Shown one piece after another: positions 52,583 through 54,747 of a stretch of 64,000 nt of DNA; positions within the stretch are counted from its first letter, which is position 1, and each line of letters starts with the position of its first letter. Position numbers and translations under genes: made by a program. The notes under the pieces are model-generated. The model did no database searches. It was not told where the DNA came from and saw only the letters and a list, made by a program, of their open reading frames with translations. Origin of the DNA: Geothrix sp. (GTDB lineage Bacteria > Acidobacteriota > Holophagae > Holophagales > Holophagaceae); assembly GCF_030219325.1 (NCBI RefSeq), contig NZ_CP126625.1, positions 1,166,857-1,230,856 of the forward strand, given 5' to 3'.

Positions 52583-52632
52583 TTGACAGCTTGATCAAAC
52601 TACACAAACTGGTCTACACAATCTTATGTAGA
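52583..52632 (+). promoter_or_regulatory. Promoter/operator region of the BlaI-like repressor operon
   Basis: A perfect -35 hexamer TTGACA (52583-52588) starts a short A/T-rich stretch in a GC-rich setting. Within it, TCTACA and TGTAGA form an inverted repeat with 8 bases between (52613-52632), and a further CTACAC lies upstream. BlaI/MecI repressors recognise TACA...TGTA dyads, so autoregulation is likely. No good -10 was found at ideal spacing from TTGACA. Confidence 0.5.
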
Positions 52633-52642
52633 GGTTTCCGTG

Positions 52643-53014
52643 ATGTCATCCGTCAAACCTACGGAAGTGGAGTTGAAGTTTCTTCAGATCCTCTGGGAGC
52701 GGGGGCCATCCGCAGTGAAGGAAGTCCATGCCCAGCTGAACCGCCGGGAGGAATACACCTACACCGGGACTCTGCGGATGCTGCAGGTCATGCTGGAAAA
52801 GGGGCTGGTGATCCGGGATGAAAGCCAGCGCAGCCATGTCTATGCGGCGGCCCACAGCCGCGCCGCCATGGAGGGGGGCCTGGTCGCCGACCTGACGGAG
52901 CGGCTTTTCGGGGGATCGGCAGCGGCGCTCGTGCTGGCGGCGCTACGCTCAGGGCAGGTCAGCCTAGAGGAGAAGGCCCGCATTCGCGAGGCGCTCGGCA
53001 AGGAGAGGCGATGA
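52643..53014 (+). CDS. BlaI/MecI/CopY-family transcriptional repressor
   Basis: 123 residues. Winged-helix N-terminus with PTEVELKFLQILWERGPSAVKEVHAQL and YTYTGTLRMLQVMLEKGLVIRDESQRSHVYAAA, then a helical dimerisation domain (VADLTERLFGGSAAALVLAAL). It should bind the dyad in its own promoter. The adjacent M56 peptidase is its expected antirepressor, and the ATG of that gene overlaps this stop (ATGA). Start: ATG at 52643 with AGAGG upstream; a GTG one codon earlier is an alternative. Confidence 0.93.
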   Translation: MSSVKPTEVELKFLQILWERGPSAVKEVHAQLNRREEYTYTGTLRMLQVMLEKGLVIRDESQRSHVYAAAHSRAAMEGGLVADLTERLFGGSAAALVLAALRSGQVSLEEKARIREALGKERR

Positions 53015-54747
53015 ACGCCGGCATCCAGATTCTGGGATGGGCCTTGCTGCACGCGCTCTGGCAGGGCTGCCTGCTCGTGCTGCTGGCGGCCTTCTGCGGG
53101 ATGTTCCTGACGGGCCAGCTCCGGCACAGGATGAATGCCCTGGCCCTGGGGCTTTGCCTGATCCTGCCCGCGCTCACAGCCTGGCATTTCCACCAGCCTG
53201 TGCCCGCAGCCGCGGGTCCGGTGGAGGTGACGGAGCAGGTGGAACGGACTCCGGTCAGATCCTTGTCCCATCAGCCGCCCTCCGTACCGCTCTTGATTCG
53301 GCTTGAATCCGCACTGCAGCCACTTCTGCCGCGGCTGGTGGCGCTGTGGGCGCTTGGCGCGTCGATCATGGCGCTGCGCCTTGGCGGCGGCCTCGCGCTG
53401 AGTCTGCGCTGGAAGCGGCAGGGCCTCCCTGCGCCCGGCCCCTGGCAGGATGCGATGGATCGGGTTGCCAAGCGCATGGACCTTCGGCGGAGGGTGCCCC
53501 TGCTGCTCTCTTCGAGGGGCGGAACGCCGGTAACCCTTGGTTTGTGGAAGCCTGTCGTCCTGATGCCGGCGGTTCTGCTCACCAGCCTGCCACCGGATTA
53601 CCTGGAGGCGCTCCTGGCCCACGAGCTGGCGCATGTGCGCCGCCTCGACTACCTCGGCAACCTCATCCAGGGAATCATCGAAGCCCTGCTTTTCTTTCAT
53701 CCAGCCGTCTGGTGGCTCTCAGCGAGGATCCGCACCGAGCGCGAGGAACTGGCGGATGAACTCGCGGCACAGAGCCTCGGCGACCCGCGGCGTCTGGCTC
53801 TGGCCCTCAACGCGCTGGATGATCTCCAGCCCGACCTTCGACCCCCGATATTCCCGGCCCTTGCGGCCCGAGGAGGACGTTTGCTGACACGAATCGAACG
53901 GCTGCTTTCCACGAAGCCCATGGCGGGATCCCCGTGGGGGCTCGTCACCCTGTTGCTGCTTCCCTGCGCGGTTCTGGCCCTGCACGCAGGTGCTCCTTCC
54001 ACCACTCCGATTCCGGCGCCCACCGCCCTGGTGGCGCAGATCGATGCCCTGGCCGCCAAGGAGGGGCTGGATCCCCAGCTGCTCCGGAGCATGGCCTGGG
54101 TGGAGAGCGGCTTCAGCGCCAAGGCCAAGAGCCCTCTGGGCGCCATGGGCCTGCTCCAGGTCATGCCGGCCACGGCCGAGGCCTACGGCGCGAAAGATCT
54201 GAATGACCCGGCCCAGGTGATGGCGGCGGGCGCGAAGTATCTGCGCTTCCTCCTGGACCGCTACCAGGGGGACGTCGAGAAGGCCGTAACGGCCTACAAC
54301 TGCGGCGAGAAAGCCCTGGATGGGGGCCAGATCACTGAAGAGGCGACCCGCTACCGCACCCTCGTGATGGGGGTGCTGAAGGCGAAGGCGGTGCAGCCGG
54401 AGGCGCCGTTGGCGGAGGGGGAGGTCCAGGGTGTCATCCGTGGCATCGGGGATGAGTTGATGGTTCACCTGCGCATCAGCAGCCGCGGAGACCTGAAAGT
54501 GGAGCTCCTGTCCGACGGTGTTCCAAGCGGTTCCGTGATCGTCGGGAACAAGGAACCGGCAGGGAAACAAGGGGTCGGGCTCTGGGAGGAGGTCCGGCCC
54601 AATATCCGGATCAAAGCTCCGAAGGCTGGCGCCCCCCTCTCGATTCGCGCCGCAAATCCATTGACGGGCTGGCGGGGGGAAACCCAGGTGCTGCCGGACG
54701 CGCCCTGGAAGACCTTCAGCTTCCGAATGGAAGAGCCCAAGCCATAG
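53011..54747 (+). CDS. M56 (BlaR1/MecR1-like) peptidase fused to a lytic transglycosylase domain
   Basis: 578 residues. The N-terminal part (1-330) is a BlaR1-type membrane metallopeptidase: several membrane helices (about 8-33, 42-60, 108-130, 308-327) and the cytosolic zinc motif HELAH (204-208) with REELADELA (third ligand near 246). In BlaR1 a penicillin-binding sensor follows the last helix; here residues about 340-470 are instead an SLT-type lytic transglycosylase: catalytic Glu365 in WVESGF, SPLGAMGLLQVMPATA, and AYNCGEKAL. A further ~100-residue C-terminal beta-rich domain is unassigned. Topology predicts that the SLT part lies outside the cytoplasmic membrane. The fusion is in one uninterrupted frame. 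Confidence 0.9.
   Translation: MNAGIQILGWALLHALWQGCLLVLLAAFCGMFLTGQLRHRMNALALGLCLILPALTAWHFHQPVPAAAGPVEVTEQVERTPVRSLSHQPPSVPLLIRLESALQPLLPRLVALWALGASIMALRLGGGLALSLRWKRQGLPAPGPWQDAMDRVAKRMDLRRRVPLLLSSRGGTPVTLGLWKPVVLMPAVLLTSLPPDYLEALLAHELAHVRRLDYLGNLIQGIIEALLFFHPAVWWLSARIRTEREELADELAAQSLGDPRRLALALNALDDLQPDLRPPIFPALAARGGRLLTRIERLLSTKPMAGSPWGLVTLLLLPCAVLALHAGAPSTTPIPAPTALVAQIDALAAKEGLDPQLLRSMAWVESGFSAKAKSPLGAMGLLQVMPATAEAYGAKDLNDPAQVMAAGAKYLRFLLDRYQGDVEKAVTAYNCGEKALDGGQITEEATRYRTLVMGVLKAKAVQPEAPLAEGEVQGVIRGIGDELMVHLRISSRGDLKVELLSDGVPSGSVIVGNKEPAGKQGVGLWEEVRPNIRIKAPKAGAPLSIRAANPLTGWRGETQVLPDAPWKTFSFRMEEPKP

Follow-up and report, generated by a model that had tools for sequence, protein, structure and literature searches.

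A BlaI-linked M56 membrane peptidase with a lytic transglycosylase domain in Geothrix, a candidate murein-state switch of the BlaI/BlaR1 design

Introduction

BlaR1 is established as the sensor of beta-lactams in the gene switch behind penicillin resistance. Its signature residues comprise the HExxH and ExxxD motifs together with Asp210 and Arg294, and the BlaI repressor of Staphylococcus aureus is cleaved between Asn101 and Phe102 (PMC9834060). A murein-related input to a system of this kind has a precedent, since a peptidoglycan fragment acts on BlaI in Bacillus licheniformis (PMC3305447). A survey of M23 enzymes mentions M23-M56 proteins (PMC9662197). The literature that we searched, with most subscription journals outside that search, held no description of an M56 peptidase fused to an SLT lytic transglycosylase domain.

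Geothrix is a bacterium of soil and sediment. Here, we analyze a gene pair in a 64,000-nucleotide stretch of a Geothrix sp. genome (NZ_CP126625.1, positions 1,166,857 to 1,230,856; hereafter, the window); the host genome comprises 3.73 Mb in a single contig. As far as sequence can tell, the BlaI/BlaR1 design has here a real and conserved variant, whose apparent regulon is unusually small and testable and whose function we infer; the membrane protein is most likely a murein-sensing antirepressor.

Results

The repressor gene, blaI (52643 to 53014, + strand), encodes a 123-aa protein of the BlaI/MecI family with a winged-helix Penicillinase_R domain (PF03965; 79.8 bits against a Pfam cut-off of 22.6) and the recognition helix YTGTLRMLQVM; its relatives in the PDB include 2g9w and 1sd4 (penicillinase repressor). 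The second gene (53011 to 54747, + strand) is one open frame of 578 aa. Its ATG starts at 53011 and the blaI stop occupies 53012 to 53014, coordinates that agree with the ATGA overlap from which the first-pass annotation had proposed translational coupling. The M56 zinc-peptidase region (residues 105 to 252; 53323 to 53766, +) matches PF05569 with 77.9 bits against a cut-off of 31 and contains H204ELAH, D213, and E245xxxD249. It is followed by the last transmembrane helix (residues 310 to 326 in the AlphaFold model, with a hydropathy peak at 310 to 328; 53938 to 53988, +) and by an SLT domain with the catalytic Glu365 (residues 345 to 436; 54043 to 54318, +), which matches PF01464 with 84.1 bits against a cut-off of 21.3. 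With all three Pfam scores above their cut-offs, and those of M56 and SLT far above, the annotated arrangement of a single frame holding M56 and then SLT beside a BlaI repressor holds up, as do the residue positions assigned to HELAH (204 to 208), E365, GAMGLLQ (377 to 383), and AYN (428 to 430). Pfam detected no penicillin-binding, transpeptidase, or beta-lactamase domain in the 578-aa fusion; SLT stands in that place. To this picture we add a C-terminal, all-beta, Ig-like-looking domain of nine strands after the SLT domain (residues 471 to 578; 54421 to 54744, +), which is poorly conserved.

The AlphaFold model of the fusion (mean pLDDT, 80.5) aligns with S. aureus BlaR1 over residues 8 to 293 (Z score, 20.3) and with the Pseudomonas aeruginosa lytic transglycosylase Slt (6fbt) over 132 residues spanning 330 to 463 (Z score, 14.8). 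Hydropathy and the BlaR1 fold match predict a four-helix membrane topology with an extracytoplasmic C-terminal domain. In sequence, the SLT domain lies beyond the last membrane helix, at the place taken by the extracellular sensor in BlaR1, and by this homology it is predicted to sit on the periplasmic side; the modeled topology thus argues against a cytosolic SLT domain, a placement that had been raised as a concern. The BlaR1 signature corresponds to H204/H208, E245/D249, D213, and R294 of the fusion, all of them invariant across 32 alignment rows. Loss of SLT catalytic residues, feared earlier, is excluded as well: the motifs are preserved in the fusions compared, which come from Geothrix, other Acidobacteriota, and Archangium, and SLT is the best-conserved region, with 56% invariant columns versus 47% for M56. 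The C-terminal beta domain is variable, and some shorter fusions (L233, for example, with 469 residues) have nothing equivalent to it; fold searches returned no decisive relative for it, with a best Foldseek E value of 0.0095 and a best Z score of 9.0 (a GH2 enzyme). The Asn-Phe cleavage site of S. aureus BlaI is not kept in Geothrix BlaI, where the aligned residues are Ala-Ala. The site is no general feature of the family, and its position may differ between pairs.

Full-length, one-frame fusions with 63 to 69% identity were found in 13 other Geothrix genomes from a sample of 60 genomes, and additional named Geothrix strains bear the fusion. It is not present in every Geothrix member of the sample, and G010 has a fragment. 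The gene order yyaL-maeA-blaI-fusion, then ruvC-rnr on the opposite strand, is conserved in the genus. Other Acidobacteriota also combine BlaI with the fusion (L211, L231, L232, L233, L138, and L139), as does an Archangium metagenome-assembled genome (MAG), in which M56 and SLT are joined by a C-terminal M23 endopeptidase (93 bits; L058:2755-4560); BlaI precedes each fusion examined outside Geothrix. Among Myxococcota, both domains were matched in 1 of 195 genomes, and the survey beyond Acidobacteriota and Myxococcota consisted of one pattern-based scan and a few single genomes. The proposed search for the same fusion beside BlaI thus shows that it recurs in Geothrix, in other Acidobacteriota, and in one myxobacterial MAG. 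Because Geothrix orthologs are intact and in synteny, and other lineages have further pairs, a frameshift or assembly error is ruled out. The MAG G528 (L060 and L211) is labeled Deltaproteobacteria yet was grouped in the Geothrix phylum, and its label may be wrong.

In a tree of SLT domains, those of the fusions form two well-supported groups, one of which lies beside stand-alone SLT proteins of Holophagaceae, a placement that suggests repeated recruitment. At least two changes are required on this tree, and a single change suffices in 0% of the bootstrap trees; a single origin was not rejected, however, in a one-clade test (p-AU, 0.205), and an M56 tree was also built. Independent origins of the M56-SLT fusions are therefore suggested by these sequences.

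Upstream of blaI, the TCTACA-N8-TGTAGA dyad described in the first-pass annotation was located at 52613 to 52632. The promoter is predicted to hold two overlapping 16-bp operators, the first of which had gone unnoticed: O1, TACACAAACTGGTCTA, an imperfect dyad conserved in orthologs (52601 to 52616; contig positions 1219457 to 1219472), and O2, TACACAATCTTATGTA, the core of the annotated dyad (52615 to 52630), which overlaps O1 by 2 bp. Across 17 distinct ortholog promoters, the mean majority residue reaches 94% in the operator block versus 62 to 63% in the flanks. A dyad operator at the pair's own promoter, a trait of the BlaI/MecI family, thus appears to be present and conserved. A TTGACA hexamer (52583 to 52588, +), whose first base is the position at which the earlier annotation began, lies upstream of the operators in every aligned Geothrix ortholog promoter and is a candidate -35 element; scoring yielded no good -10 hexamer on the + strand of the window's own blaI promoter.

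The window's genome has four M56 genes. Its three paralogous BlaI-M56 pairs (L001, L002, and L003) have TACGAA- or TACGGA-type dyads; their C-terminal regions differ, and that of L003 ends in a TonB-like stretch. Outside Geothrix, TACGAA dyads accompany 4 of 7 fusions (L058, L138, L139, and L231), and TACA-type dyads were read from the sequences upstream of the L232 and L233 fusions. The closest non-Geothrix relative, L211, has the same recognition helix, and no TACA-N8-TGTA dyad was recognized upstream of its blaI. Among the loci compared, and with kinship ignored, Thr/Ser at a single position of the BlaI recognition helix goes with TACG dyads at 46 of 46 loci and Gly/Ala there goes with TACA dyads at 14 of 15 (the exception being L089). 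This covariation supports the dyads as true operators, and since the operator both differs from those of the paralogous pairs and covaries with the recognition helix, the circuit looks, on present sequence comparisons, insulated from them.

The exact TCTACA-N8-TGTAGA sequence occurs once in the host genome. A wide regulon under this dyad was considered and rejected, since allowing two mismatches gave 9 matches versus 24 for a reversed-pattern control. We then scanned six whole Geothrix genomes (~21 Mb) for TACACAA-N2-TTGTGTA with up to two mismatches. Of the 12 sites, 11 belong to the promoter of the pair and the remaining one to that of a deacetylase gene in G020. In the window's genome, the motif is confined to the pair's own promoter, contrary to the earlier expectation that the regulon would lie elsewhere.

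The deacetylase target was first revealed by a perfect palindrome at its gene in G033. Close orthologs (71 to 92%) are encoded in G002, G020, G018, and G026, and a site with no more than one mismatch lies shortly upstream of the start in all five species, running into TATACT in G020, G018, and G026. The secreted protein matches Polysacc_deac_1 (61.2 bits against a cut-off of 23.1), with TFDDGP and HxxxH motifs visible; murein need not be its substrate, which could be another polysaccharide. All five deacetylase-bearing genomes also carry the M56-SLT fusion. The operator-bearing deacetylase is absent from the window's genome, which has just a 44% paralog at which no such site was found; with operator sites at the pair's promoter alone, the circuit therefore looks self-contained in this genome, and its output there may be just the pair itself. 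The 44% paralog (L281; G000:C1:1843798-1844631) lies ~1.8 kb before the M56 gene of L003, and a similar paralog in G025 is likewise near an M56 gene. In G019, TACACCAATTTCTGTA is found at several places in contigs C10, C11, C13, C21, C22, and C26, twice at contig base 104, and looks like a repeated element.

Discussion

We consider the odds somewhat in favor of a BlaI/BlaR1-type murein-state switch, in which SLT replaces the penicillin sensor and the circuit is self-amplifying, insulated, and wall modifying in its output. BlaI would repress its own operon while the SLT domain engages periplasmic glycan strands. A change in murein, be it strand ends, turnover products, damage, or an SLT-blocking agent, would shift M56 into a BlaI-cleaving state, and cleavage would derepress the pair, plus the deacetylase where present. 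The assignment of sensing to the outer domain and of BlaI cleavage to M56 follows from homology to BlaR1. An SLT outer domain naturally suggests a murein-related input; that it senses murein, beyond merely cutting it, is what we infer. The domain may act as sensor, enzyme, or both. A possible, more tentative elaboration is a closed murein feedback, in which an active SLT domain would gauge the digestibility of glycan, BlaI cleavage would induce the deacetylase, and operator and helix would have been retuned against other switches; if the deacetylase acts on the glycan of murein, lytic enzymes would attack the modified strands less readily.

Alternatively, the fusion could be a working lytic transglycosylase, tethered to the membrane and kept at a homeostatic dose by its own M56 domain and BlaI; SLT would then be the output and not the sensor. 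The retention of all SLT catalytic motifs, the stronger conservation of SLT than of M56, and the restriction of operator sites in the window's genome to the pair's own promoter are consistent with this idea. However, the domain at the equivalent position of BlaR1 is a sensor (PMC9834060), and a second, distinct target in five species, the deacetylase, would be superfluous for pure dose control. We regard this explanation as unlikely, though worth serious attention. It is improbable that the products of SLT, anhydro-muropeptides, are themselves the signal, acting on the fusion or, after uptake, on BlaI, with M56 in a supporting role: peptidoglycan dipeptides do bind BlaI/MecI and destabilize its DNA complex (PMC3305447), but full conservation of the M56 catalytic residues favors proteolysis as the main step. 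A different BlaI paralog might control the operator-bearing deacetylase, leaving the SLT pair to control itself alone, and Geothrix genomes do hold several BlaI-M56 pairs each. Yet the three paralogous pairs in the window's genome are of the TACG type, the TACA type accompanies the SLT-linked recognition helix, and every genome that bears the deacetylase has the SLT pair, making this arrangement distinctly improbable. An assembly or frameshift artifact, or an incidental fusion with no function, for which we found no support, has a negligible chance of being correct given one-frame orthologs, synteny, and conserved operators in Geothrix and the fusions in other lineages.

The murein-state switch that we prefer joins a murein-cutting outer domain with a distinct operator and with an apparent regulon of one or two promoters. 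This combination suggests that the BlaR1-type design serves, in addition, to monitor the cell wall in the absence of antibiotics. A regulon of this size lends itself to direct testing in Geothrix strains that are culturable and harmless.

Among described proteins, M23-M56 proteins resemble the Geothrix fusion in joining M56 to a murein hydrolase; they have an M23 endopeptidase instead of SLT, and the passage of the survey that mentions them does so without repressor, operator, or target analysis (PMC9662197). The Archangium fusion has both SLT and M23, unlike that of Geothrix. The paralogous pairs of the window's genome have the identical two-gene layout, with other C-terminal regions and TACG-type operators. 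The lytic transglycosylases Slt, MltF, MltC, and MltE share the SLT fold and the motifs E, GxxGLxQ, and AYN with the Geothrix domain, whereas the latter rides on a four-helix signaling protein of the BlaR1 type. The BlaR1/MecR1-BlaI/MecI systems of S. aureus and B. licheniformis share with the Geothrix pair a repressor, an M56 membrane peptidase with its C-terminal domain outside, the HExxH/ExxxD motifs and supporting residues, and dyad operators at their own promoter. The Geothrix pair differs from them in its operator, in the residues at the cleavage site, in having no adjacent beta-lactamase gene, and in an outer domain that is SLT and not a penicillin-binding domain.
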